44,609 bases of DNA, from positions 1 through 44,609 of the forward strand of contig CAINGU010000074.1 of assembly GCA_903848645.1 (NCBI GenBank), in the 5' to 3' direction. The notes under the pieces were generated by a model, which saw nothing but the letters and a program-made list of their open reading frames with translations, had not been told where the DNA came from and ran no database searches. The stretch is from an uncultured cyanobacterium. Its GTDB lineage: Bacteria > Cyanobacteriota > Cyanobacteriia > Cyanobacteriales > Nostocaceae. Made by a program: the position numbers and the translations under genes. Position 1 is the stretch's first letter. Every line of letters begins with the position of its first letter. This document shows positions 25,828-44,576 of this stretch, piece after piece.

Positions 25828-26508
25828 TCAAACCTTTAACTTTGTTACCGCAATTTTGCCAGAAAAACATATATCAACATCACTATTAGGAGTCCGTTCT
25901 CGTTTACCATATTCTCCTATGTAGTAAAAATCATCACCTTCTATTCGATAATTAACAGGTAAAGGTTTTGTACATGATTGACAAAATACCACTTCTGGAT
26001 CTGCTTGTTGCGGTAACAGGTGCGGTAAATTGACATTCCAAAAACATCCAGGTTCTAGGGGAAGTTCCATCAAATTATCTAACAATGCAGATGTCCACCT
26101 AATAGCCGCATCCCAATCATAATCACGTTTACCTTGACGATATTGAGAAACTGCAATTCCGGGAATCCCGTGCATTGCAGCTTCTCTGACAGCAGCGACA
26201 GTCCCCGAAATATAAGCATCTACTCCCAAGTTTCCCCCAGCATTAATCCCGGAAATCACATACTTGACATTTGGAGTAATATGTGATATAGCAACTCGGA
26301 TACAATCAGCCGGAGTTCCCGCTATTGCATATTCAAAATCAGAACGACGTTGCAGATTAATCGGTTGATGGGTAGTAACTTGATGTCCACAGCCTGATTG
26401 ATGGGTTTGTGGTGCAGCAATAATTACCGATTTACTATTTACTGCTTTAAACAAAGCTGCAATCCCTGGTGCTTCTATACCGTCGTCATTGGTGATAATT
26501 ATCGTCAT
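25828..26508 (-). CDS. surE: 5'/3'-nucleotidase SurE
   Basis: 226 residues. SurE removes phosphate from nucleoside 5'- and 3'-monophosphates. Diagnostic N-terminus MTIIITNDDGIEAPGIAAL with metal ligands Asp8-Asp9, then QSGCGHQVT, AGTPADCIRVAI, SGINAGGNLG and YISGTVAAVREA. Length is a little below the usual ~250-270. An older paralogue remnant matching its first 23 codons is found at 27331-27399. Confidence 0.9.
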   Translation of the reverse strand: MTIIITNDDGIEAPGIAALFKAVNSKSVIIAAPQTHQSGCGHQVTTHQPINLQRRSDFEYAIAGTPADCIRVAISHITPNVKYVISGINAGGNLGVDAYISGTVAAVREAAMHGIPGIAVSQYRQGKRDYDWDAAIRWTSALLDNLMELPLEPGCFWNVNLPHLLPQQADPEVVFCQSCTKPLPVNYRIEGDDFYYIGEYGKRERTPNSDVDICFSGKIAVTKLKV

Positions 26509-26664
26509 GCTATATTTTTTAATGCTTATTATATCTGTTTAGGTTAGTAATTACTAGAATTCTTCTTTGTGATTTTTCTGGTATAGCCTACCAGACTAAA
26601 TCATAAGAATATTTTACTAAGGCCATTATGGTTGTATACTAGGGATAGATGCAAAAACAGTTAT

Positions 26665-27105
26665 ATGATCAGGGTTTATCTAGACACCAGTATTTATAAT
26701 CGTCCATTTGACGATCAAACACAGCCTAAAATATTTCTAGAAACACAGGCGGTAATTTTAATTTTACAAATGGTAGAAGTTCAATTCCTAGAATTAGTGA
26801 GTTCTTCAGTTCTAGAATATGAAAATAGCCGTAACCCTTTCACCCTGAATCAGCAATCAATGGCTCGATATTTACAAATAGCCTCATTAAGAGTATTAGT
26901 AGACGAAAATATTAGAACCAGAGCCAAGCAATTAGAAAAACAAGGCATTAAACCGATTGATGCACTTCATGTAGCTTGTGCAGAAGCATCTCAAAGTGAT
27001 TACTTGATCACTTGTGATAGAAGATTAATTAATCGTTGTCAAGATTTATTACTCAAAGTAATTAACCCAACAGATTTGATTTTGGAGATGGAAGATGACT
27101 ATTAA
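26665..27105 (+). CDS. PIN-domain ribonuclease (toxin-like)
   Basis: 146 residues from the ATG at 26665; a TTG at 26632 would add 11 residues. PIN domains are metal-dependent RNases of VapC-type toxins. Visible acidic positions are D7 in VYLDTSIYNRPF, an E in SSSVLEYENSR, IDALHVACAE and TCDRR. The N-terminus YLDTSIYNRPFDDQ is characteristic of a PIN subgroup common in cyanobacteria. Its partner is probably the small protein overlapping at its 3' end. Confidence 0.8.
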   Translation: MIRVYLDTSIYNRPFDDQTQPKIFLETQAVILILQMVEVQFLELVSSSVLEYENSRNPFTLNQQSMARYLQIASLRVLVDENIRTRAKQLEKQGIKPIDALHVACAEASQSDYLITCDRRLINRCQDLLLKVINPTDLILEMEDDY

Positions 27106-27310
27106 AGTTATTAACGAACAACAAAATTTACAAGAAGTGATGCAGGTTTTGCTTGCTCACCTAGAACCAGCAAAAGTAATGAAATTTTGGGCGGCTTGTA
27201 AAATAGGTGAAGGTGATTATTTACAACTTAAAGAAAGCCTATTTTCTGAAGAAACAGTTGATAGCTTATATACAAAAATTCAAGAATATCAAGAGTCTAC
27301 TGGTAAATAA
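27095..27310 (+). CDS. Small partner protein of the PIN toxin (candidate antitoxin)
   Basis: 71 residues overlapping the PIN gene by 11 bp, so translation is probably coupled. No DNA-binding motif is recognised; the sequence is helical and acidic (LQEVMQVLLAHLEPAKVMKF). Antitoxins are usually upstream of PIN toxins, so the reversed order is notable. Function as antitoxin is inferred from position alone. Confidence 0.6.
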   Translation: MTIKVINEQQNLQEVMQVLLAHLEPAKVMKFWAACKIGEGDYLQLKESLFSEETVDSLYTKIQEYQESTGK

Positions 27311-27330
27311 TCAAAGGTTATAAATAAACT

Positions 27331-27399
27331 TACGGCTTTGAACAAAGCGGCTATTCCTGGTGCGTCAATACCATCGTCATTGGTAATAATTATAGTCAT
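27331..27399 (-). pseudogene. Remnant of a second surE 5' end
   Basis: 69 bp on the minus strand encode MTIIITNDDGIDAPGIAALF followed by KAV, matching the first 23 residues of the intact surE with a single E/D change. Most nucleotide differences are at third codon positions, so both copies diverged as functional genes before this one was truncated. The match ends at 27331, where the sequence changes to unrelated DNA reaching the PIN module's 3' end. Confidence 0.75.
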
Positions 27400-27432
27400 A
27401 TATATAACTCATATTTGATTTTGAAACTGTAC

Positions 27433-27486
27433 GTAGGGTGGGCAATGCCCACCGTAGGCAGATTTTTGCGCTCAATCTCACCCTAC
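27433..27486. repeat. Nested hairpin repeat GTAGGGTGGGCAATGCCCAC
   Basis: An outer stem GTAGGGTG (27433-27440) with CACCCTAC (27479-27486) encloses a GGGCAATGCCC hairpin. The left half is nearly identical to the repeat at 10381. It lies between the surE remnant and the Mokosh-like operon. Confidence 0.65.
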
Positions 27487-27596
27487 TGCTAAATAAATGT
27501 AACGTAATTTCAGTAATTTTAATATATTTTTATTTCTAAGTGTGATTTAATGAAATTGGTTGAGTAGCTTAGTATAAATATCGTTAGGGTGTCGAG

Positions 27597-27728
27597 ATGG
27601 GGCAGTTCTCAGACTGGATGATAGTTGGTGCTTTTACCTTTGGTGTTGGTATCACTGGTTCTTTGATGCTGCAAACACTCATGAATTGTCTAAGTTGGCA
27701 GTATATTGAAATTATACTTGTAGTGTAA
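27597..27728 (+). CDS. Candidate 43-residue single-helix membrane peptide
   Basis: ATG at 27597, stop TAA at 27726-27728. The peptide has one strongly hydrophobic segment with GxxxG spacing (VGAFTFGVGITGSLMLQTLM) and a second hydrophobic end (YIEIILVV). It is 62 bp upstream of the kinase-helicase ATG, and a TATAAAT lies 18 bp before its start (27573-27579). It could be a leader peptide, a small component of the defence operon or a chance ORF. No ribosome site is obvious. Confidence 0.35.
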   Translation: MGQFSDWMIVGAFTFGVGITGSLMLQTLMNCLSWQYIEIILVV

Positions 27729-27790
27729 TATAGTTTATAGCGCGTTTTTTAGTGGTTCATCTTCATTATTGCAATTATAAAAAAATCAGT

Positions 27791-30700
27791 ATGTCTAATG
27801 TAATCGGTGAAATTATTGGTGGTCAGTACGATATCCAAACTAAACTCGGACAAGGTGGTAGTGGAGTAGTCTATTTAGCGAAAAAATTAGGTACTAATGA
27901 GCGTTATGCTATTAAAACTCTTTCTACCGATGAAGATAACGCAATTAAATTGTTAGAAAGAGAAACAGAAACTTTAAAACGGTTTAATCATCCTAATATT
28001 GTTAGATTTATTGAACAAGGTTATGAAACCCGTCATAAGCTGGTTTATTTGGTATTAGAGTATTTAGATGGTCAAGATATTAAAACTTATTTTGATAGTG
28101 GCATTGATTTAAAGACAAAATTAAATCTATTTAAACAAATTATTGATGGAATTAGTCATGCTCATTCTAAAAATATAATTCACAGAGATATTAAACCAGA
28201 CAATATTAAAATTGTAGCTACTGATGAACAACCTCAAGCAAAGGTTTTAGATTTCGGTATAGCCATTATTACCACTACTATTTTAACTAATACAATTAGA
28301 AGTTATCATACACCTTTATTTTCTGCTCCTGAGCAAATTAATTTAGAAAAGGTTTCTAGAGATTCTGATATTTATTCTTTAGGAATGACATTTCTATATT
28401 TATTATCAACTCAAGAAGCTAGAATTACTTTTCAAGATGAAAGAGACAAAACCGTACTTTATCAATCTACTCAGTCAATTTTAAATGGTGCTGGCAATTT
28501 TAGCAATTTAATAGAAACTTTAAAAAATGCTACACATAAAGATCGTGAAAATCGTCCTAAACTTGATGAACTTAGAAAAGTTATTTCTGATTTTCAGGAA
28601 GAACTAACACAGTCAATTAGGATCATTTTTAATATTACTCGTAAAGCAGAACAAGAAATTAATGATAAATATAACTTTCAAAATAACATTTTAGAAATTA
28701 AAAAGCATATTGAATCTTTATTCCAAGAAAACTCCAATTTAGTACACATCAAAAAAAGTCCAGATCAATATCAGCGAGATGAAAATAGACTAACAATTGA
28801 TATAGGTTTAGAGAATTCATCTAAATTCTATCGTGGATTTATTAATTTAGATAATCATAACTCTACCCAAATAACCGTATTACATGAAAGTTCTTTACCT
28901 CCTAATATACAAGAACAGATATTTGAAAATGGATTATATGTAAAAGTTCATCCCATTATTGAGGTAGGGGCTGGATTAAAAAGAAAAACAGACTTATCTG
29001 AATTAATTAAACAGATTTTACAAAAAGAGCAGCAAGTTAAAAATGAAATAAAAAATAATAAAGATTTAGCAGCAACGTTTGAACAATGGCAATCGGTAAT
29101 TGATATTGAAAAACAAATAATCAGCGATAAAAAATCCGTCTTTGAATATAGGGAAAAATATTATGATCAGCAAAGACAAATTTTGATTTTATCCTTAACA
29201 AAACCTATTTCAATGGAAGATTTTGATAAAGTCACATCTCCACCTTTGCCTATTACCATTTCTATCAGAAATAACTCACCCTCCATTAAACAAAAAGAAA
29301 AGCAGTGGGCGATTGGAGATATTATTGATGGTGATAAATCCAGCAATGGAGAATTAATTGAAAAATTACATATTAGTATAGGAGACTTTTGCGCTCCTGA
29401 AATCATAGAATCTATCTTAGAAAAAGGAAAAATCGAAACTAATTTCAAAGCACAAGAATCTGAAATTGAAAAACGGCGTAAAGCTTTAAGAGAAATTAGA
29501 TATGGAGATTGTGAAAATACAACCTTATCTACTGTAATAGCTGAACCATCTAATGTTAAACCAATAGAAGCTAGTTTCATTCATCAATTTTTCAATCAAC
29601 AGTTAGATGATTCACAGCAAAAAGCAGTCTGTAAAGCCTTAGCTACTGAAGATATTTTTCTAATTCAAGGACCACCAGGTACAGGTAAAACTTCTGTAAT
29701 TACAGAAATTATCTTGCAAATTCTGGATAAGTATCCTAATGATAAAATTTTGATTTCTTCTCAGTCTAATGTAGCGGTAGATAATGTTTTAACTAGACTT
29801 TCTCGTGTTGAAGATAAAAAAATTATATGTATTAGAATTGGTAGAGAAGAAAAGATAGAAGAAGAAGCTAGACAATTTGAAATTGAGAAAGCTATTATTA
29901 ATTGGCAAGATTCAATACGTTCTAAATCTTTAACTTATTGGCAAGAATATCAGGAACAAAATCAGCAAATGTTATCAGGAGTTAAAAAGATTGCTCATTT
30001 AGAAGATGTGAAAAGCAAAAATCAAGAATTACAAGTCTTATCTAAGAAACTAACTCAAATAATTACGAGATTTAATTCTGAGTTGATTATACATAAAGAT
30101 AATTTAGCATCTATAGAATTCTCTGACATTGCCTTAGAATTAATCTCTGAAAAACTAGAACTGGAACAAAAAATATTAAAATCATTAGAAACATATACCA
30201 CAAAGTTTGGTATAGAGTATCCAGAGCAAAAGCATCTGTCAAATTGGATTAATGAAGAATCTAAAGTATTGCAGAGTATCTTAGGTGATAATCAAGAAAA
30301 TTATGAAAAGTTTATTAGATTGCAAAATTTAAACCAAGAATGGAACGAAAAACTTAAAAGAAAACAGAAAGATTTAGAATCCCTATTTATAGATGAAATA
30401 AATGTTGTTGGTGCAACTTGTTTAGGAGTAGCAAGATTTAAAGATCGTAATTTTGATTGGGTAATTGTTGATGAAGCTGGTAGATCTACTGCTCCTGAAA
30501 CATTTGTACCAATGTCAAAAGGGAAGAAAATAATTTTAGTTGGTGATCATAAACAACTACCTCCAATTATTGATCAAGAATTACAAGCAAGAGCTTTAAG
30601 TGAAAAAGAAATTGAAAAAATAATTCTTGAAAGAAGTTTATTTGAATACCTTCATGAAAAACTACCTAAAACAAATAAAATAACTCTGAATAATCAATAT

Positions 30701-31348
30701 AGAATGCACCCTCATATTGGTGATTTAGTTAGTACATTATTCTATGATAGTCAAGTTGCTAGTAATCTTGTCAATGTCCAACAAAAAGAGCATAATCTAA
30801 CACTGTTTGATAAAAGTATTTACTGGATATCAACTAGTGATGTACCAGAAGAAAAATCTCAAGAAAGAGAAAATGGAAAAAGCCGAAGTAATCCTTATGA
30901 AGCAAAAGTGATCAAAGCAGTTTTACTAAAAATTCAAGAAAACTGTGAATCAAATAATTTATCCAAAGAAGTCGGTGTTATTTCAGCCTATCGCTCACAA
31001 ATTAGTATTTTAGAATCTGCAATTGCTCCTAATGATAAACAGTTGTGGAAAAATTTACATATCATTATTCATACAGTTGATGCTTTTCAAGGGGGAGAAT
31101 GTGATATTATTATTTATGATTTAGTCAGAAGTAATCCAAATAAAAAACTAGGTTTTACTTCTGATGATCGCAGATTAAATGTTGCTTTATCTCGTGCTAA
31201 ACAGCTATTAATTATAGTTGGTAACGATAATATGGCTTATCAAGGGAGAACTCCTAATCATATTTCTAATCCTTTTAAACCATTAATAGAATATATTGAT
31301 AGTAGTGAGTTTTGTTCTCGATCAAAATCTAGTGATTTTATTTTGTAA
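27791..31348 (+). CDS. mkoA: Mokosh MkoA-like Ser/Thr kinase-SF1 helicase fusion
   Basis: 1185 residues from the ATG at 27791; a GTG at 27752 is in frame but has no support. The kinase domain (about 13-280) has a G-loop at 20-25, Lys42, HRDIKPDN at 131-138 and DFG at 154-156. A ~330-residue middle region of helices has no recognised fold. The C-terminal superfamily 1 (Upf1/Dna2-like, COG1112-type) helicase has Walker A GPPGTGKT at 627-634, Walker B DEAG at 894, GDHKQLPP near 918, NQYRMHP, VDAFQGGE and RRLNVALSRAK. All catalytic motifs look intact. In the published type I Mokosh anti-phage system MkoA has just this kinase plus RNA-helicase layout and is followed by a phospholipase-D protein, as here. 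Confidence 0.8.
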   Translation: MSNVIGEIIGGQYDIQTKLGQGGSGVVYLAKKLGTNERYAIKTLSTDEDNAIKLLERETETLKRFNHPNIVRFIEQGYETRHKLVYLVLEYLDGQDIKTYFDSGIDLKTKLNLFKQIIDGISHAHSKNIIHRDIKPDNIKIVATDEQPQAKVLDFGIAIITTTILTNTIRSYHTPLFSAPEQINLEKVSRDSDIYSLGMTFLYLLSTQEARITFQDERDKTVLYQSTQSILNGAGNFSNLIETLKNATHKDRENRPKLDELRKVISDFQEELTQSIRIIFNITRKAEQEINDKYNFQNNILEIKKHIESLFQENSNLVHIKKSPDQYQRDENRLTIDIGLENSSKFYRGFINLDNHNSTQITVLHESSLPPNIQEQIFENGLYVKVHPIIEVGAGLKRKTDLSELIKQILQKEQQVKNEIKNNKDLAATFEQWQSVIDIEKQIISDKKSVFEYREKYYDQQRQILILSLTKPISMEDFDKVTSPPLPITISIRNNSPSIKQKEKQWAIGDIIDGDKSSNGELIEKLHISIGDFCAPEIIESILEKGKIETNFKAQESEIEKRRKALREIRYGDCENTTLSTVIAEPSNVKPIEASFIHQFFNQQLDDSQQKAVCKALATEDIFLIQGPPGTGKTSVITEIILQILDKYPNDKILISSQSNVAVDNVLTRLSRVEDKKIICIRIGREEKIEEEARQFEIEKAIINWQDSIRSKSLTYWQEYQEQNQQMLSGVKKIAHLEDVKSKNQELQVLSKKLTQIITRFNSELIIHKDNLASIEFSDIALELISEKLELEQKILKSLETYTTKFGIEYPEQKHLSNWINEESKVLQSILGDNQENYEKFIRLQNLNQEWNEKLKRKQKDLESLFIDEINVVGATCLGVARFKDRNFDWVIVDEAGRSTAPETFVPMSKGKKIILVGDHKQLPPIIDQELQARALSEKEIEKIILERSLFEYLHEKLPKTNKITLNNQYRMHPHIGDLVSTLFYDSQVASNLVNVQQKEHNLTLFDKSIYWISTSDVPEEKSQERENGKSRSNPYEAKVIKAVLLKIQENCESNNLSKEVGVISAYRSQISILESAIAPNDKQLWKNLHIIIHTVDAFQGGECDIIIYDLVRSNPNKKLGFTSDDRRLNVALSRAKQLLIIVGNDNMAYQGRTPNHISNPFKPLIEYIDSSEFCSRSKSSDFIL

Positions 31349-31360
31349 TGAGGTTTAATT

Positions 31361-32788
31361 ATGGCTGATCAAATTAGAGATTTTGAAAACAAGATTCGTA
31401 AATATCACTCACTTCCTGAAGCAATAGTAATTGATTGCAAATCTGTTGGTTATCCGTTTTATGTGCTAAAAAATATTGATATAACTTACTTAGAAAATAG
31501 AGATTTAGAATTATTGGAAGAATTCATTATGAAATGTATTGCTAATGGGTTCAATAAACTAGCAGAAATTTCTGGTTTTATAGGAATGGATAACCATGTC
31601 ATCGAAAAAGTATTATCAAAATTAATTTCAACCGATTTAATTACAAGAGAAGATGGTTTTAAATTAACACAAAATGGATTAGATGCTTTACAACAGCAAA
31701 CGGTTTTAGCACCAGTTTCAGATACCAAAACTTTCTATCTAGATGGTTTAAATGGCAAGTTAATAGATAATTTTTATCTGAGTAAATTTGATGTAAAAAA
31801 ATATCAAAATAGTTCTATTGAGAAAATAATAAAAAGGCCAAGAAAAGATCACATAGAAGATATTATTGATTATTATCAAGATATTGAAAAATTTTTACAA
31901 ACTCCCAAGAATCCTAATATTGAATTAATACAGGTTAATAAAATAGAAAAAATATATCCTGAATGGCATGAAGTATTGTTAGTTTTATATAAAAGTAATC
32001 CTAATGATAGTGAAATAGAATATGAGATTTTTTCTAGAGACTCTATTCAAAAAGACTATAGAGAAACTATAGAAAAATTATATGGTGAAGGTAAAAAAAT
32101 ACTTGATCCTATTTTTCAGGATATGAAACAAGATAATACTTCTAATCAATCCTTTAGCGAAATTATTAGTAGTATTAATGATGAAGATGTTAAAAATGTA
32201 GAACAAATAACTGCAAGAATTAGTTCTCTTAATGATCCTGATTCTTTTACAGATAATAAAAATAATTCTGTCAAAGAAGAAAAACAAAAACTTAAACAAC
32301 AATTAGAACACATAAAGAATCAAACTAGAATATCAGAAGTAATTCATACTTGTGAACTTCGGGAATATCTTTTCAAGGCTCTAAAACAGGCAAAAAACAG
32401 AGTAATGATAGTTTCTCCCTGGATTAAAAGTAATGTAGTTAATCAAGAATTTTTATCAGCTTTAGAAGAAACATTAAAACGAAAAGTCCAAATTCATATC
32501 ATATATGGGTATAAGGAAACTCCGGGAAGTATGAAAAATGATAGCTGGTCAATTAAGCAATTAGAAAATTTAATGCACAATTATAAAAATTTGAAGTTTC
32601 AAAAAACTACAAATAGTCATCGTAAGCAAATAGTTTGTGATGATAAGTTTGCAATAGTCACCAGCTTTAATTTTTTATCATTTAGAGCAGATCCTAATTT
32701 AACTTATAGAGATGAACTAGGAGTAATTTTAAGGGATAAACAAACAATTGAAGATTTATTTGAAAGTGCTATAAGTTTAATTAACTGA
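31361..32788 (+). CDS. mkoB: Mokosh MkoB-like phospholipase-D nuclease protein
   Basis: 475 residues, starting 12 bp after the helicase stop with a GAGG site, so in the same operon. An N-terminal winged-helix-like part (about 48-110: LAEISGFIGMDNHVIEKVLS) may bind nucleic acid. A charged helical middle leads to a C-terminal PLD domain (about 325-475) with one HKD motif, H420-R-K422 and D427 in HRKQIVCDDKFAIVTSFNF. A single HKD means dimerisation is probably needed for an active site, as in Nuc-type nucleases. In Mokosh this protein is thought to be the nuclease effector or cleavage partner. Confidence 0.75.
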   Translation: MADQIRDFENKIRKYHSLPEAIVIDCKSVGYPFYVLKNIDITYLENRDLELLEEFIMKCIANGFNKLAEISGFIGMDNHVIEKVLSKLISTDLITREDGFKLTQNGLDALQQQTVLAPVSDTKTFYLDGLNGKLIDNFYLSKFDVKKYQNSSIEKIIKRPRKDHIEDIIDYYQDIEKFLQTPKNPNIELIQVNKIEKIYPEWHEVLLVLYKSNPNDSEIEYEIFSRDSIQKDYRETIEKLYGEGKKILDPIFQDMKQDNTSNQSFSEIISSINDEDVKNVEQITARISSLNDPDSFTDNKNNSVKEEKQKLKQQLEHIKNQTRISEVIHTCELREYLFKALKQAKNRVMIVSPWIKSNVVNQEFLSALEETLKRKVQIHIIYGYKETPGSMKNDSWSIKQLENLMHNYKNLKFQKTTNSHRKQIVCDDKFAIVTSFNFLSFRADPNLTYRDELGVILRDKQTIEDLFESAISLIN

Positions 32789-32852
32789 AAAAGCATTATA
32801 TTTAGGAGTTCAATCTCTTATGGATACTCAAAAAAGACTTTTTGTAAAAATA

Positions 32853-32884
32853 GCGATCTGCTTGCAGCAGCGCTTCGCTATCGC
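32853..32884. repeat. Hairpin repeat GCGAT ... ATCGC
   Basis: An outer GCGAT/ATCGC stem encloses CTGCTTGCAGCAG and AGCGCTTCGCT hairpins. It lies between the mkoB-like gene and the vapBC pair and may act as a terminator-like or mobile repeat. Confidence 0.5.
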
Positions 32885-32954
32885 TATTCCATAGGGTAGG
32901 TTAACCGCATTTATGCTAAGATGCCATTACTACACTCTGTAAGGAGTTTTCTGT

Positions 32955-33236
32955 ATGGCTAACGTTACTTACGATGAAATTTTTGGAGCAGTATTAACTT
33001 TACCTCCTCTATACAGAGCGATGCTTGCTGAACATCTTCTCAAAAGTCTTGATGAAAAGGAGCAAATTCAACTGGCTACACAGTTATTGCAACGGGTAGA
33101 AGTAAAGATTAATAAAGAACCTCAGTCTATGCCAAATAAAGGATTACGACAGCCAGGACTCGGTTTAGGTTCTTGTATATTCAATGATGACTTTGATGAT
33201 CCACTACCTGATGAGTTTTGGCTTGGTGAAACATGA
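32955..33236 (+). CDS. Antitoxin of a VapBC-type pair
   Basis: 93 residues with a GGAG site before the ATG. The N-terminal part (FGAVLTLPPLYRAMLAEHLL then KSLD) resembles addiction-module antitoxins of the LPPxxRAxLAxxLLxSLD type. The C-terminal part (PGLGLGSCIFNDDFDDPLPD) resembles the toxin-binding tail of DUF2281-type VapB proteins, so two known antitoxin themes seem joined. It overlaps the PIN toxin gene by 4 bp. Confidence 0.75.
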   Translation: MANVTYDEIFGAVLTLPPLYRAMLAEHLLKSLDEKEQIQLATQLLQRVEVKINKEPQSMPNKGLRQPGLGLGSCIFNDDFDDPLPDEFWLGET

Positions 33237-33619
33237 AATTACTATTCGATACTCACACTTTTATGTGGTGGCATAGCGAACCAGATCGTATACCTAGAGA
33301 CACACTGACATTACTTCAAAATCCCAATCATGAGTTACTTCTAAGCATAGTCAGCCTATGGGAAATGCAAATCAAAATTCAGTTAGGAAAACTAACCCTT
33401 AGAGATGATTTAGAACTTATGTTAAAGACTCAGCAGGAACAAAATAATATTACTTTAATATCTATAACATTTCTCCATATTCTGGAACTAAAAAACTTAC
33501 CTCTACACCACAAAGATCCATTTGATAGACTTCTAATAGCTCAATCTAAAGTTGAAAATGCAACATTAATTAGTCGAGACTCAGTTTTCCAAAACTATGA
33601 CTGTCCTGTAATTTGGTAA
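33233..33619 (+). CDS. vapC: VapC-type PIN-domain toxin
   Basis: 128 residues, typical VapC length. PIN acidic residues are visible in LLFDTHTFMWW (D6), SLWEMQIK (E), HHKDPFDRLLIAQ (D) and SRD. These proteins cleave tRNA or other RNAs when freed from antitoxin. The ATGA overlap with the upstream antitoxin indicates coupled translation. It ends the accessory stretch before a subtilisin-type gene on the opposite strand. Confidence 0.85.
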   Translation: MKLLFDTHTFMWWHSEPDRIPRDTLTLLQNPNHELLLSIVSLWEMQIKIQLGKLTLRDDLELMLKTQQEQNNITLISITFLHILELKNLPLHHKDPFDRLLIAQSKVENATLISRDSVFQNYDCPVIW

Positions 33620-33704
33620 TCACTAACTCTTTGTTAGTTCCTGACTTTCCTAAACAAATTAAACGATAGATAAAGCTGAATACTGAATTTGCTATATATC
33701 ACTT

Positions 33705-35279
33705 TTAACCTACAGTCCACCAGGCTAAAGCATAAGGTTGAATAGCTTCATTAACCTGCTTCTTGAATTGCACCCGTATTTTATAATTACCATTAGCAGT
33801 AACCGGACAAAAAATATGTTCCACACTATCAACCTCACTCACAGAATCACAAACAACAACTTCATTATCCTTAACTAAATAAACATCAAGATTATTTAAT
33901 CCTTTATCTATAAATGTTTCTCCTATATCATATTCCTGATTATTATTTTTATCATCCAACTCCACCAAACGATCCCAAATTAAAGTAATAGCCACAAAAC
34001 TATTTTGTTTCAAACCTTTTTGCAAACCATATTCCCTAGAAGAATTAGCATTAACAATACCATAATCCCAACCAATAGGCGGCACGGTTGCAGTAGGTTT
34101 CCATTCACCACCATTCAATTGTTGATAAGCTCGAAAAGCATTTAAATGACCTGCTCCCATTTGAGCATCTAGAGGAATTTTGTGATTTTTATAAGCGTCC
34201 GTTGCTAACCAATCTTGATTTTGTTTATCAATTAAAGTCCTCGTCATTCCCAACCGTAAACCATCACCACTGTCCTTTATTTTGTCCGCCGAATTGAGTA
34301 ATATTGCTTTCATGACTTGATGACGACGAGCATCAATAGTCCAATTTGGTTGTTTAGTTCGTAACTGTCTATCCACAAATTCCTGTAATAATGCCACCGT
34401 ACCTGTAACTTGTGGTGCGGCAAAACTCGTACCTGTAGATTTATTTAATTTACCATCAGGATTAAGTAAAGGAATATTCGTACCAGGAGCAACTAAACTA
34501 ATTGCACTTCTGCCACCAATATTAAATTCTTTCCCTGCTAAACGATTTTCTATACCTTGATTAATACTCGCCAAATTAGAAACGTGAACTTTATTAAAAA
34601 TTCCTTCTCGTTCCGATGAAAAAGCCACATTAATTGCGTTAAAATTATCTGTAGGAATGGGAATCCCGCCTTTGCCTTGATTGCCCGCAATGGAATAGAC
34701 AACATCATGAACACGACTAGACCAGTCAATACATAATGTTAATAAAGCATTACCATCTAACATAGCTTCTGGTCGGGGATCACGTTCTAGCGGTTCACCA
34801 AAACTAAAATTAATCGCCCGCACATCACCACCATTTTGTAATGCAATGTGTTGTGCAGATAAACACTCCTCTGGTTGACCAATTTTTTTTACAGATCCGA
34901 CAGCAGAAGAATATAAACGGGCATTTGGTGCGACACCAGGAAAAGCCTTATCTTGACTCACCATGACACCAGAAACATTATAGGCATGAGGATCAACACC
35001 AACATTCGACTGAGCGGGGATATCCCGTGAAAACACGGCAAATGGCGATACAGCCCGATTTTTAGATACGGCTTTATCCCAGCCAAACATCCCCGGACGA
35101 CCAATTTCGACTTGACCAATGGCAATTTTCCGCCCAGTCAAATTATAGGGAGCTTGTTGTAGTTTCAGCGCATCAATGCCGTTAGCACCTAAAAAATTGG
35201 CAAACTTCACCCCAGCAAAGACGGGTACAGTCAAGCAAGAAAAACCTAAACTCCAAAAAATTAGCCAATTTCTGTTCAT
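33705..35279 (-). CDS. Secreted subtilisin-like (S8) protease with Glu in place of catalytic Asp
   Basis: 524 residues. Signal peptide MNRNWLIFWSLGFSCLTVPV FA, so secreted. The S8 fold is indicated by the His98 motif (HAYNVSGVM), the oxyanion Asn200 (SIAGNQG) and Ser285 (GTSFAAPQVTG). The first motif, normally V-x-D-T/S-G, reads IGQVEIG with Glu58 where Asp is expected. The C-terminal ~150 residues are beta-rich and may be a binding domain. Whether the Glu supports catalysis is unknown. Convergent with vapC and divergent from rpe. Confidence 0.8.
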   Translation of the reverse strand: MNRNWLIFWSLGFSCLTVPVFAGVKFANFLGANGIDALKLQQAPYNLTGRKIAIGQVEIGRPGMFGWDKAVSKNRAVSPFAVFSRDIPAQSNVGVDPHAYNVSGVMVSQDKAFPGVAPNARLYSSAVGSVKKIGQPEECLSAQHIALQNGGDVRAINFSFGEPLERDPRPEAMLDGNALLTLCIDWSSRVHDVVYSIAGNQGKGGIPIPTDNFNAINVAFSSEREGIFNKVHVSNLASINQGIENRLAGKEFNIGGRSAISLVAPGTNIPLLNPDGKLNKSTGTSFAAPQVTGTVALLQEFVDRQLRTKQPNWTIDARRHQVMKAILLNSADKIKDSGDGLRLGMTRTLIDKQNQDWLATDAYKNHKIPLDAQMGAGHLNAFRAYQQLNGGEWKPTATVPPIGWDYGIVNANSSREYGLQKGLKQNSFVAITLIWDRLVELDDKNNNQEYDIGETFIDKGLNNLDVYLVKDNEVVVCDSVSEVDSVEHIFCPVTANGNYKIRVQFKKQVNEAIQPYALAWWTVG

Positions 35280-35353
35280 ATTTTTAGGTAACAGGGAGAA
35301 GTTTTCTGGAAAATTGGAATTTTGAATTAATTTTTAATAATTTCTCCATATTT

Positions 35354-35362
35354 TGTTACAAT
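35354..35362 (+). promoter_or_regulatory. Candidate extended -10 promoter of rpe
   Basis: TGTTACAAT fits an extended -10 (TGn-TACAAT) 35 bp upstream of the rpe ATG; no good -35 is visible, as is usual for extended -10 promoters. Confidence 0.35.
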
Positions 35363-35396
35363 GCTTACAGACGAAGACGCTTAAAACCCACTAGCC

Positions 35397-36104
35397 ATGA
35401 CCCAAAATTCATCTCAAAAGCCTATAGTTATCGCTCCATCTATCCTATCAGCAGATTTTAGCCGTCTGGGTGACGATATTCGCGCCGTAGACAAAGCGGG
35501 AGCAGATTGGATTCACGTTGATGTAATGGACGGACGTTTTGTTCCTAATATTACAATAGGTCCCCTGATTGTGGAGGCGATTCGTCCAGTTACAACCAAA
35601 CCACTGGATGTCCACTTGATGATTGTGGAACCAGAAAAGTATGTAGAAGGTTTTGCTAAAGCTGGCGCTGATATTATTTCCGTCCACGCAGAACATAACG
35701 CATCTCCTCACCTGCACCGCACCCTGGGACAAATCAGAGAACTCGGTAAGAAAGCTGGAGTTGTACTCAATCCGGGTACACCTTTGGAGTTAATTGAATA
35801 TGTCCTAGAATTGTGCGATTTAGTGCTAATTATGAGCGTTAACCCCGGTTTCGGTGGTCAAAGCTTTATTCCTAGCGTAGTTCCTAAAATCCGCAAATTG
35901 CGTCAAATGTGCGATGAACGCGGTTTAGATCCTTGGATTGAAGTTGACGGGGGACTCAAAGCTAATAATACTTGGCAAGTTTTGGAAGCTGGTGCTAATG
36001 CTATTGTAGCGGGTTCGGCTGTGTTCAACGCTCCTGATTATGCTGAGGCAATTACCAATATCCGTAACAGTAAGCGTCCGACACCAGAATTAGCTGCTGT
36101 TTAA
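35397..36104 (+). CDS. rpe: Ribulose-phosphate 3-epimerase
   Basis: 235 residues. It interconverts ribulose 5-phosphate and xylulose 5-phosphate in the Calvin cycle and pentose phosphate pathway. A full TIM-barrel signature is present: [33 protein letters not shown] (metal-binding His and Asp), [25 protein letters not shown], and [10 protein letters not shown]. Length is normal. It is monocistronic and followed by a terminator. Confidence 0.95.
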
Positions 36105-36133
36105 TTTAATACTTGTGATTAATTGAAAGCTAG

Positions 36134-36162
36134 ATCCCTGATTTCTTTGAGAAGTCGGGGAT
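36134..36162 (+). terminator. Terminator hairpin after rpe
   Basis: ATCCCTGATTTCT and GAGAAGTCGGGGAT form a long stem followed by TTATTTTA. Starts 30 bp after the rpe stop. Same repeat type as after chlM. Confidence 0.7.
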
Positions 36163-36361
36163 TTATTTTATGTTTTCTAGGAGAAACAAAAATCTGTGCA
36201 GTGGAAAAGCGTCGCGCAAAAAGACAAACAAAAACCTTATGTTCTATTCCCGATATCGTCGGCAAAATAATATACTTAACATCACCGTTTTTTGCTACCA
36301 AGTGATCAACATAAGATTATTGATTTTTTAGAAAGATTAGTTTTTTCACCATGAGTGATTT

Positions 36362-37237
36362 TCATATTCCAGCTTGAGTTAATACCTCACTTAAATCAGC
36401 AACTAAATCTAAAATTTCTGCCCATTCTGTTAAATAACCATAATCCAAACTTTCACTTTGTAACTTAATTATCCCCAAAACATCGCGCCATTGTTTTTCT
36501 GATTTACTTCCCTTTCCCCAGCGCAGTTTTTGTAAAATAATATCTTCTGCTGAAGCTATCCAAAAAGCAGGAATTCCATCTAAATCAACTAATATTCTTC
36601 GCTGCATTTGAGATATTGCAAAAGGTGAATTGTCAGTAATATAAATATCAGCATTAGCAATAGTTTCTGTATGGGTAATATTCAATATATTTCCCAAACC
36701 TCGTTGCAAATCTTCTACCGCACCTGCTGGACAATAATATCCAGATGCTTCTAAAGTTTTTACCAGTAAATCTATTTGATTTGGCTTAACTTCTATCACC
36801 AAATCTAAATCACGAGTAGAACGTGCTTCTCCATGAATAGAACTAGCAACACCTCGATTAACATAGTAATCAATATTAATTGATTTAAAAAGTTGATGTA
36901 GTTCTCCTGCTAAAGAAATTGAATCTTGAATCCACATATTTTCATTAATACCTTTTGGTTGAAAATCAGGAGTAAATTTTTCTCCTAATACAGCACGGGT
37001 AAATATATCACGAATTTCCTGTATAGTTAAATTACGATGTCGAGATTTAATTCCTATCAGACATAGTTTTTTAACTCCTCTTTCATGGCTAATAAATCTT
37101 TCTATGCGTTGTTTTAATGATAATTGTCGCCATTTTTGAAAGAAATAAATATCAGCTTCTATATCTGTGTCTTGACTTTGGGGTTGATAGTTATGTTTGG
37201 GAATTGTTGGGAAAAATAAGTTTGATTTTTCTAGCAT
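36362..37237 (-). CDS. Nucleotidyltransferase-fold protein
   Basis: 291 residues. A central nucleotidyltransferase motif NRGVASSIHGEARSTRDLDL (about 128-147) has metal-binding-type D143 and D145, as in AbiEii/MNT-like families. The N-terminal ~95 residues are helical, with no recognised fold. The C-terminal region (IASAEDIILQKLRWG) matches the helical part of this superfamily. The gene follows a GIY-YIG gene by 16 bp on the same strand, so the two form a probable operon. Role (toxin, antitoxin or enzyme) is not decided. Confidence 0.7.
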   Translation of the reverse strand: MLEKSNLFFPTIPKHNYQPQSQDTDIEADIYFFQKWRQLSLKQRIERFISHERGVKKLCLIGIKSRHRNLTIQEIRDIFTRAVLGEKFTPDFQPKGINENMWIQDSISLAGELHQLFKSINIDYYVNRGVASSIHGEARSTRDLDLVIEVKPNQIDLLVKTLEASGYYCPAGAVEDLQRGLGNILNITHTETIANADIYITDNSPFAISQMQRRILVDLDGIPAFWIASAEDIILQKLRWGKGSKSEKQWRDVLGIIKLQSESLDYGYLTEWAEILDLVADLSEVLTQAGI

Positions 37238-37253
37238 AGTTTAGATATTAATA

Positions 37254-38837
37254 TCAGATCATACTAAATGAAAATTTAAGTTTAGATATTCCACTTGAGT
37301 TTAAACGTTCTGTAATAATATTTACTGCTTCAGTATAAGAAATATTATCTTTTGTTCCGAATGGAATATCTGTTTTCCACTTTCCATTTAAAGTTATACT
37401 GATTTTAGAAGGTGTTAAAGTTTTTCTAGCAGAAACATAAAATTTCTCTATGTAGCCTTCATCTGGATTAAGTATTACTTTGGTAAAATCTGACAAATAT
37501 TCTTCTAGCAATAGCCAAAATGCTCTATCTACTTTTGCTTCTAAATAAACTGCTTTATAAGGAAAGTTTTCTAAGTTTTTCATTTGATATATATTGCCAT
37601 TACTGCCATATATCATACTAGAATAGTGTGCTGGTTGGCGCAAGTCAGTATATAAGAAAGATTTGATGTATACTGTCATCATTCTATCTGAATTATTATC
37701 AACATAGTTATTATCAGTTGGTATTCTTTCCAAATACTTGTTAACTTGATAGCTATTTATATCAACTCCTCTTTCTATTAATAAATTCTGAAGGTAGATT
37801 TTCTTAGTTGCGAGGTTAACAAGTCGAGAAGATAAGTTATTATTATCCTCTACTTGAGGTTTTGATTCTGCTGGTAATGTTTGTAATTTAGTTGTATTTA
37901 TTTCCTCATTAAATAATAGCTTAAATAAATCTATTTTGTAAGGATTTAATCTTTGTAATGCTTGATGGCAAACTATCTCATATTCTGAATTATCTCTATC
38001 AGAGTATAGGCAAATTCCAGCATCATTAAGTTTACAAGTATCTTTCAAGATATTCAGAGTATTTTCATTCATTACTCTAATATTTATTCCTGCTATTTGC
38101 ATGAAATCGTAACAATCGTAACTTTGAATTTTTTGTAAAACTTCTCTATGAATCATAGAAACTTCTATTGCAAAACCATTAACTAAGAGTCTCCTAGTTA
38201 AAAATGTCCCGTATCTTTCATATTGTTTATTAGCTGGATGAAGTGACCAATTATTTGCATAATTAACACGCTTTTTAAATACATTTCTCAAAAATGTAAA
38301 TACTGTTCTTTGTTTTTCAATGTTAAACTCTTCTAAGTTTATACAAATATGTATCACACTCAAAGGTAAAACTGATTTTTGAATCCTTCTATCACTACTA
38401 AAAGATTGACATTTTGCCATAAAATTAGGATCATCTTTTCGTGGTGGTTCTACACCCAATATAAAACTATATGGTGCAATAACAGCTAAAGTTTCTCGTA
38501 AAAGTGTTTCTGTAGGACGTAGTTTTTTAGTTTTAACGATTGTTCCATTTAATTGGGGATTATACTGTTCAATACGCTCCTGTTCAATTGCGTCAAGTTG
38601 AGTTTCATGAACAAACTCATAATAAATAGTAAAAACCTTTTTTCTTTGCTTTTCTAACTGATAGATTCGATGGTGACTTTTTCCAGCCCAACGATTACGT
38701 AAATTTTTTGCTAGTCCTATATACCAAATAATTGATTGATCATCAATAACATAGTATATTCCTGATTTTTCAGGTAGTTGTCCTCTGCTTTTTAGGGGTA
38801 GATTAGGCAATTTTGCAATGAATTCGTCCGTATTCAT
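37254..38837 (-). CDS. GIY-YIG nuclease-domain protein with long unknown C-terminal region
   Basis: 527 residues from the ATG at 38837; a TTG at 38858 is in frame but less likely. The GIY-YIG domain is near the N-terminus (SGIYYV about 25, IIWYIGLAKNLRNRW about 36-50, and E-rich LDAIEQERIEQYNPQLNG near 82-97), with the key Arg and Glu positions present. The ~420 residues that follow show no known domain; they include repeated aromatic/charged segments and a second conserved-looking end. It could cut DNA, or have a partner-dependent role with the downstream nucleotidyltransferase. Confidence 0.7.
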   Translation of the reverse strand: MNTDEFIAKLPNLPLKSRGQLPEKSGIYYVIDDQSIIWYIGLAKNLRNRWAGKSHHRIYQLEKQRKKVFTIYYEFVHETQLDAIEQERIEQYNPQLNGTIVKTKKLRPTETLLRETLAVIAPYSFILGVEPPRKDDPNFMAKCQSFSSDRRIQKSVLPLSVIHICINLEEFNIEKQRTVFTFLRNVFKKRVNYANNWSLHPANKQYERYGTFLTRRLLVNGFAIEVSMIHREVLQKIQSYDCYDFMQIAGINIRVMNENTLNILKDTCKLNDAGICLYSDRDNSEYEIVCHQALQRLNPYKIDLFKLLFNEEINTTKLQTLPAESKPQVEDNNNLSSRLVNLATKKIYLQNLLIERGVDINSYQVNKYLERIPTDNNYVDNNSDRMMTVYIKSFLYTDLRQPAHYSSMIYGSNGNIYQMKNLENFPYKAVYLEAKVDRAFWLLLEEYLSDFTKVILNPDEGYIEKFYVSARKTLTPSKISITLNGKWKTDIPFGTKDNISYTEAVNIITERLNSSGISKLKFSFSMI

Positions 38838-38888
38838 ATTTATTTGTAATGCTGACAAAAATTTTCGAGTTTTATATTTTTAGAAATT

Positions 38889-44028: not shown

Positions 44029-44319
44029 ATGGGAATTGAAGAATTATTACTACCATTTCGAGAACAAATATTAAAAATTGCCACTAAATATGGTGCTTAT
44101 AATCTGCGGGTTTTTGGTTCTGTTGCTAGAGGTGAAGCAACACCAGATAGTGATATAGATTTTTTAGTAGAATTAAAACCCCAAAGTAGTTTATTTGATT
44201 ATATTGGTTTAATGCAGGATTTAGCAGCATTATTAGGACGAAAAGTGGATATTGCTGAACCTGATAATTTACATGAATTAATTAGAGATAAGGTATTAAG
44301 TGAGGCTATACCGTTATGA
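44029..44319 (+). CDS. mntA: MntA-type minimal nucleotidyltransferase antitoxin
   Basis: 96 residues. Minimal nucleotidyltransferase with motif GSx10DxD exactly spaced: G30-S31 and D42-x-D44 in GSVARGEATPDSDIDFLVE. In MntA/HepT pairs this protein AMPylates and inactivates the HEPN toxin. It overlaps the next gene by 4 bp. Confidence 0.85.
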   Translation: MGIEELLLPFREQILKIATKYGAYNLRVFGSVARGEATPDSDIDFLVELKPQSSLFDYIGLMQDLAALLGRKVDIAEPDNLHELIRDKVLSEAIPL

Positions 44320-44576
44320 AAGATGAGCGTTTATATTTAAGTAATATTCAAGAATGTATTGAACGAATAGAGGAATATACAAAATGTGGTAAAGAGGAAT
44401 TTATGGCAACTAAGATAATTCAAGATGCTGTAATTCGCAATTTTGAAATCATTGGGGAAGCAACAAAAAGATGGCTCTTCGGTACTTGTTATGCCAAACT
44501 ATTAGCTACGCCCACCAAACAATATTACAAAATGTATCAACAAATATCTAAAAGTGCTGTAAGGGTTGACATATAA
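44316..44576 (+). pseudogene. hepT: HEPN toxin (HepT), interrupted
   Basis: 86 codons. The first ~52 (MKDERLYLSNIQECIERIEE, then IIQDAVIRNFEIIGEATKR) are a good HepT N-terminus, but from codon ~53 the sequence departs (WLFGTCYAKLL...) and the HEPN catalytic R-x4-6-H motif is absent. The break at ~44472 coincides with a GGCTCTTC start, so insertion of a mobile element is likely. The toxin should be inactive. Confidence 0.65.

Follow-up and report, generated by a model that had tools for sequence, protein, structure and literature searches.

The window, a stretch of 44,609 nucleotides covering one contig of an uncultured Nostocaceae cyanobacterium (CAINGU010000074.1), contains a two-gene operon, mkoA–mkoB. 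From its sequence we read a complete Mokosh type I system that is probably functional in defence against phage, and we put the probability that it is Mokosh type I, as distinct from any single step of the mechanism, at about 0.9. We do so because the genes are intact and co-directional, their motifs are kept, both are under purifying selection, the distribution is patchy and the neighbours are mobile-element or defence genes. Mokosh type I, the pairing of MkoA with MkoB, reportedly goes back to Millman et al. in 2022; the locus looks like an intact copy of an already published system, at a variable chromosomal position, and as a kind Mokosh type I is nothing new. Taken alone, the window shows that a Nostocales-type cyanobacterium carries Mokosh type I intact on its chromosome, at a mapped site of gain and loss. 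The related loci matter more than this one, which is itself ordinary.

Assignment of the operon to Mokosh type I

The original prediction had described a Ser/Thr kinase–helicase fusion followed after 12 bp by a PLD protein, with the architecture of Mokosh type I. An open reading frame (ORF) check confirms both genes, their coordinates (Table 1) and the gap: mkoB starts 12 bp past mkoA on the same strand, and neither gene shows a frame break. The mechanical mkoA ORF is longer, reaching an in-frame GTG at 27752; we prefer the start at ATG 27791 because the two closest loci (L002 and L003) have kept that codon.

MkoA gives a single match to the PADLOC MkoA model over residues 8-1171 of 1185 (PDLC03920, 711 bits, 9.2e-214), and MkoB matches its counterpart at 230 bits (PDLC03922, 1.8e-68), with the best stretch at residues 24-405. 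The best non-Mokosh families score 178 bits for MkoA (mad6, kinase part alone) and 33 bits for MkoB (DrmC). These values support the predicted architecture, and no other kinase–helicase family scores clearly better, in a comparison of scores between families, the tool's output giving neither PADLOC's thresholds nor its system rule. The same two models also pick up eight further MkoA (alignment A2) and ten MkoB (alignment A1). In NCBIfam, every model stays under its cut-off for both proteins: TIGR00376 (IGHMBP2 helicase) gives 260.9 bits on MkoA (cut-off 348.9) and NF038319 (DrmC/DISARM) 36.3 bits on MkoB (cut-off 133). By sequence, the best PDB matches to the MkoA helicase are SMUBP-2 and NAM7 (Upf1), and MkoB has no match up to E 0.1. 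An excerpt of PMC10925250 classes MkoA in SF1_Upf1. Helicase and Ser/Thr kinase share one protein (Pfam, motifs) and the PLD nuclease is encoded on its own by the next gene of the operon, the arrangement of type I; type II (MkoC) does not fit, with two ORFs here and the MkoC model split across both proteins.

All three predicted domains stand above their Pfam gathering scores. In MkoA, these are Pkinase (13-260, 4.7e-42) and the two helicase parts, AAA_11 (604-927, 1.1e-57) and AAA_12 (946-1146, 2.5e-51); in MkoB, PLDc_2 (338-465, 4.7e-12, 46.3 bits versus a cut-off of 27). A motif search finds the catalytic residues intact where they had been placed. The kinase carries GQGGSG at 20, HRD at 131 and DFG at 154; the helicase GPPGTGKT at 627, VDEAG at 893 (DEAG from 894), GDHKQL at 918, QYRM at 969 and ALSR at 1132; and MkoB one HxKx4D motif, HRKQIVCD, at residues 420-427. 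HRD, DFG, Walker A and DEA are invariant across 13 aligned MkoA, some ~26% identical to the window protein, with the last G of DEAG changed to S in distant relatives.

The winged helix proposed for the MkoB N-terminus is likely, not proven: models of that fold match residues 43-112 at scores below their cut-offs (PF24409, 22.6 versus 27 bits; Rio2_N, 21.2 versus 27 bits). MkoA is strongly diverged at ~280-560 (10-16% identity per 40-residue window versus six distant homologues). Distant plasmid tblastn matches often begin at 526-544 and some at 406-413, which puts the least assigned part at ~280-540. The original prediction, which set this middle and the MkoB N-terminus apart as unexplained by the known domains, overstates the case. 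Both read as features of the family, because they lie inside the PADLOC model matches and 13/13 MkoA, the window copy included, keep 342-372 residues between the kinase (R255) and Walker A. The N-terminal region is likewise present throughout the aligned MkoB.

Selection and distribution

Nei–Gojobori estimates of dN/dS against L003, L002 and L080 are 0.128, 0.137 and 0.165 for mkoA, and 0.141, 0.139 and 0.159 for mkoB. They indicate that both genes are under purifying selection; as averages over the whole divergence, they would leave very recent decay invisible.

A profile search at E<=1e-100 found MkoA in nine of 386 cyanobacterial genomes, seven near full length (window genome included) and two partial. 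A MkoB-like gene adjoins MkoA in 7/7 of the near-full-length loci, with gene order kept. Used as the query at 1e-100, window MkoA is positive in one of 16 same-genus genomes, its own, a count that speaks for close relatives only; the profile search left out seven of the 16 (G386-G392). One same-genus genome, G147, holds a diverged MkoA that was caught by the profile (27% identity, 4.6e-88 by tblastn). Relatives in Cuspidothrix issatschenkoi and Anabaena FACHB-1237 share 82-87% identity, the operon on Nostoc plasmid pNPM2 is 85% identical and a Pseudanabaena plasmid copy shows 69% and 61% identity. Genes annotated as DncV-like nucleotidyltransferase, E2/UBC, Mov34/MPN and HNH adjoin the pNPM2 operon, a set that we read as CBASS-like.

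This pattern bears on whether the operon could instead be a housekeeping pair for Upf1-like RNA surveillance, with a regulatory kinase and no role in defence. Such a role would suit a helicase of the Upf1/IGHMBP2 group. It is hard to reconcile with a near-full-length MkoA in just 7/386 cyanobacterial genomes, with a chromosomal site that lacks Mokosh in 9/9 readable relatives (see below), or with close copies that are plasmid-borne, one of them beside the CBASS-like cluster; we regard it as highly improbable.

A viral origin was considered and rejected. For MkoB, 0/61 pattern matches were confirmed in viral contigs; for MkoA, where the patterns were kinase motifs, 44 loci were kept of 81 pattern matches, all within residues 1-313 at the kinase end. 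PHROGs holds no match to MkoB, and its matches to MkoA are to kinase-only and helicase-only families. Separately, genome G380 has a MkoB-like frame that lacks the usual N-terminus (L043:9019-10455, minus strand), and no MkoA match turned up in the 19.5 kb retrieved.

MkoB variants in related loci

The HKD motif is present in 14 of 19 MkoB examined and missing in five (one from G147, four rhizobial), a split that is not a frequency, the sample being non-random and HKD-less forms having been sought out. The MkoB-like protein of G147 (L038:1500-2807, minus strand; 436 aa) accompanies an MkoA with intact motifs. The MkoB model aligns with its residues 20-254 (118 bits), and residues 293-432, which hold no HKD, match the C-terminus of PDC-S68 (153 bits). 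Our own reading, together with weak matches to nucleases (PF14811, E 0.0068, below cut-off; PADLOC HEAT_CxxC_PDDEXK, E 0.0091), suggests a PD-(D/E)XK nuclease-like C-terminus.

Sinorhizobium MkoB is matched in 20 plasmid records, seven of which, all Rhizobiales, cover at least 97% of it. In 7/7 of these full-length records (at most six of them distinct, two being equal in length and coordinates), a PP2C phosphatase match directly adjoins the end of mkoB or overlaps with it; two more Rhizobium records hold 61% of the gene and stand outside this count. Four of four rhizobial MkoB that we read (L129, L130, L131 and L134; Table 1) lack HKD, and Pfam detects no PLD in them, nor in L132, which has HKD. 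We take the rhizobial C-terminus for a probable degenerate PLD, because of the alignment and of PADLOC MkoB matches that reach residues 422-488 in three. The cognate kinases have DYG instead of DFG (4/4) and HRDLNP (3/4). No PP2C is annotated in the seven PLD-type plasmid regions viewed, PLSDB annotation being incomplete. PADLOC calls the G147 protein and three rhizobial forms MkoB, and its models do not separate the variants.

These loci suggest that the nuclease end of MkoB can be swapped or lost in some relatives. Neither MkoB domain swaps nor a PP2C partner is described in the Mokosh literature searched, in the excerpts available and with most subscription papers outside its scope, which is no proof of novelty. 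The variants also raise an alternative in which the system acts chiefly through phosphorylation instead of PLD cleavage: the helicase would sense infection, the kinase would act on host or phage targets and MkoB would serve mainly as a scaffold. The existence of HKD-less MkoB agrees with this, and the rhizobial PP2C gene fits reversible phosphorylation. However, HKD is kept in 14/14 PLD-type MkoB, the window's included (a class defined by possession of the PLD), which makes a role for cleavage probable in the window's MkoB, and the departure of the rhizobial kinases from standard motifs also argues against it. We consider a phosphorylation-led output unlikely.

Possible mechanism and points against the assignment

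Upf1-like SF1 helicases act on RNA or single-stranded DNA; PLD-family enzymes with HKD motifs cleave phosphodiester bonds, and those with a single motif usually act as dimers. In the mechanism that we propose, the Upf1-like helicase of MkoA would engage phage-derived nucleic acid, most likely RNA, and this ATP-driven engagement would alter the state of the fused kinase. The kinase would then phosphorylate itself and/or MkoB. MkoB would dock through its N-terminal and middle region and, once docked, would cut nucleic acid with its single-HKD PLD domain. In this detailed form, in which the helicase senses, the kinase switches, the MkoB N-terminus serves as the adaptor for docking and the PLD is the effector, we give the mechanism roughly even odds.

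A broader view would make Mokosh type I a kinase–helicase platform and MkoB an adaptor whose output can be exchanged. Its N-terminal and middle region would be kept, and the PLD could be replaced by another nuclease-like domain (G147) or lose its active site alongside a PP2C gene (rhizobial plasmids). The PLD form of the window would then be one of at least three subtypes, and reversible phosphorylation would be central to control. The MkoB variants speak for an adaptor role and are still compatible with an output led by phosphorylation; we hold the broader view to be as probable as its converse. The changes of MkoB output and the pairing of kinase with phosphatase would make a division of labour between sensor, switch and effector testable.

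Several points weigh against a complete, functional Mokosh type I in the window. Its anti-phage activity is a prediction. The MkoA middle and the MkoB N-terminus carry no assigned fold. The five HKD-less proteins mean that PLD cleavage is not family-wide. Neither protein shows a NERD domain (PF08378) in Pfam at E up to 0.01, and one review table, in the excerpt of PMC10952713, lists NERD for type I; the definition in the excerpt of PMC11672841 does without it, naming an RNA helicase and a Ser/Thr kinase in one protein with the PLD separate, and we take NERD to be accessory. Between the PADLOC MkoA models, the better fit to the window protein is the shorter (1112 positions); the first ~540 positions of the longer one (1607) are unmatched and would, we infer, represent the NERD domain. 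Published accounts, each seen in excerpt, also leave the mechanism unsettled: PMC12926258 lists it as unknown, PMC11291487 has Mokosh degrade viral transcripts (and share domains with the piRNA pathway), and PMC11672841 speaks of phage genetic material being degraded, or of interference.

Chromosomal site

The Mokosh site lies between surE and a subtilase gene (33705-35279) that is found in 16/16 same-genus genomes. We compared it with 15 other same-genus genomes: 9/9 relatives with both flanks in the stretch have no mkoA or mkoB match between surE and the subtilase, and the remaining six are uninformative, with surE outside the fetched stretch. In three (L071, L074 and L075) the site is uninterrupted, the sequence passing from ~27786 straight to ~33694. 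A leader common to mkoA loci (Table 1) occurs in these three genomes as well, and before mkoA in two other genera. It is thus present with and without mkoAB, which makes a loss of mkoAB in those genomes and a gain in the window equally likely.

A mere dispersed repeat does not fully explain the leader, since its first part (window 27490-27666) corresponds to the 5' flank and opening codons of an AAA_5 coiled-coil gene that extends further in other same-genus genomes (L077:395-2569; AAA_5 3.2e-9, PADLOC PDC-M26A 3.3e-41). The window holds no Rfam family at gathering score, and 26300-36400 has none up to E 1; the leader is therefore not a known RNA family.

PIN toxin–antitoxin-like pairs stand on both sides of the operon. 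The downstream antitoxin-like gene has a near-identical copy in G243, a genome without Mokosh, and DNA homology to it is also found behind the Cuspidothrix operon. Upstream, a PIN gene (26632-27105, PF01850 3.0e-10) is followed by a 71-aa ORF without family (27095-27310); both recur in G387, the ORF nearly identical and the PIN gene in part. A 70-nt repeat of the surE 5' end, 86% identical, lies beyond the upstream pair (26439-26508 and 27330-27399), as if the pair had inserted with a partial surE duplication. We read the site as one of defence and toxin–antitoxin turnover.

By eye, G387 also holds a relic of ~120 codons of a closely similar mkoA beyond rpe, then an apparent antitoxin remnant (L078:389-906). 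Could the window operon itself be in decay, having persisted by chance at a site of turnover? Decay elsewhere at the site, as in the G387 relic (on our own reading) and in the AAA_5 gene-start remnant of the leader, would allow for it. The unbroken frames, the intact motifs and dN/dS values of 0.13-0.17 over both genes, though blind to very recent decay, make it very improbable, and we retain an intact Mokosh type I.

Elsewhere in the window, a nucleotidyltransferase (PADLOC PDC-S09, 7.2e-39) and HepT-like pair at 44029-44576 is likely an MNT/HEPN toxin–antitoxin module, and a 534-aa ORF at 37254-38858 (minus strand) has a weak GIY-YIG match (21.1 bits versus a cut-off of 22.6) and no PADLOC match.

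Table 1 Positions of the operon, its surroundings and the rhizobial loci (window coordinates unless a locus is named)
Feature	Position	Strand	Description
mkoA	27791-31348	+	1185 aa; Ser/Thr kinase 13-260, poorly conserved middle ~280-540, Upf1/IGHMBP2-like SF1 helicase 604-1146
mkoB	31361-32788	+	475 aa; winged-helix-like N-terminus, middle, C-terminal PLD with single HKD motif 420-427
Leader common to mkoA loci	27579-27790	+	Cuspidothrix (from 27656, contig start there), Anabaena FACHB-1237; homology continuous with mkoAB
Stretch missing from uninterrupted site (approximate ends)	27787-33693		L071, L074, L075
Antitoxin-like gene, downstream PIN pair	32955-33236	+	PF09720 E 0.0033, below cut-off
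PIN-domain toxin-like gene, downstream pair	33233-33619	+	PF01850 2.1e-12
Rhizobial plasmid loci	L129:2501-8146, L130:2474-8275, L131:2471-8209, L134:1052-6748		MkoA, HKD-less MkoB, PP2C overlapping mkoB end

Comparison with known systems

The IGHMBP2/SMUBP-2 and Upf1 helicases share the helicase core of MkoA (TIGR00376, 260.9 bits), but the window helicase stays below the 348.9-bit cut-off, is fused to a kinase and is paired with a PLD protein. The PLD proteins DrmC of DISARM and DpdK resemble MkoB in the PLD (DrmC 33 bits, NF038319 36 bits), far under the 133-bit NCBIfam cut-off, and the partner gene here is MkoA. The MkoC model of Mokosh type II matches the two window proteins with its helicase part (129 bits) and its PLD part (65 bits); type II is, however, one fused gene without a kinase (excerpt of PMC11672841), whereas the window has two genes and a kinase. 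From Mokosh type I, apart from the NERD domain not found and the longer MkoA model partly unmatched, no essential difference of the operon was found: both place a kinase and a COG1112-type helicase in one gene and a PLD protein in the next.

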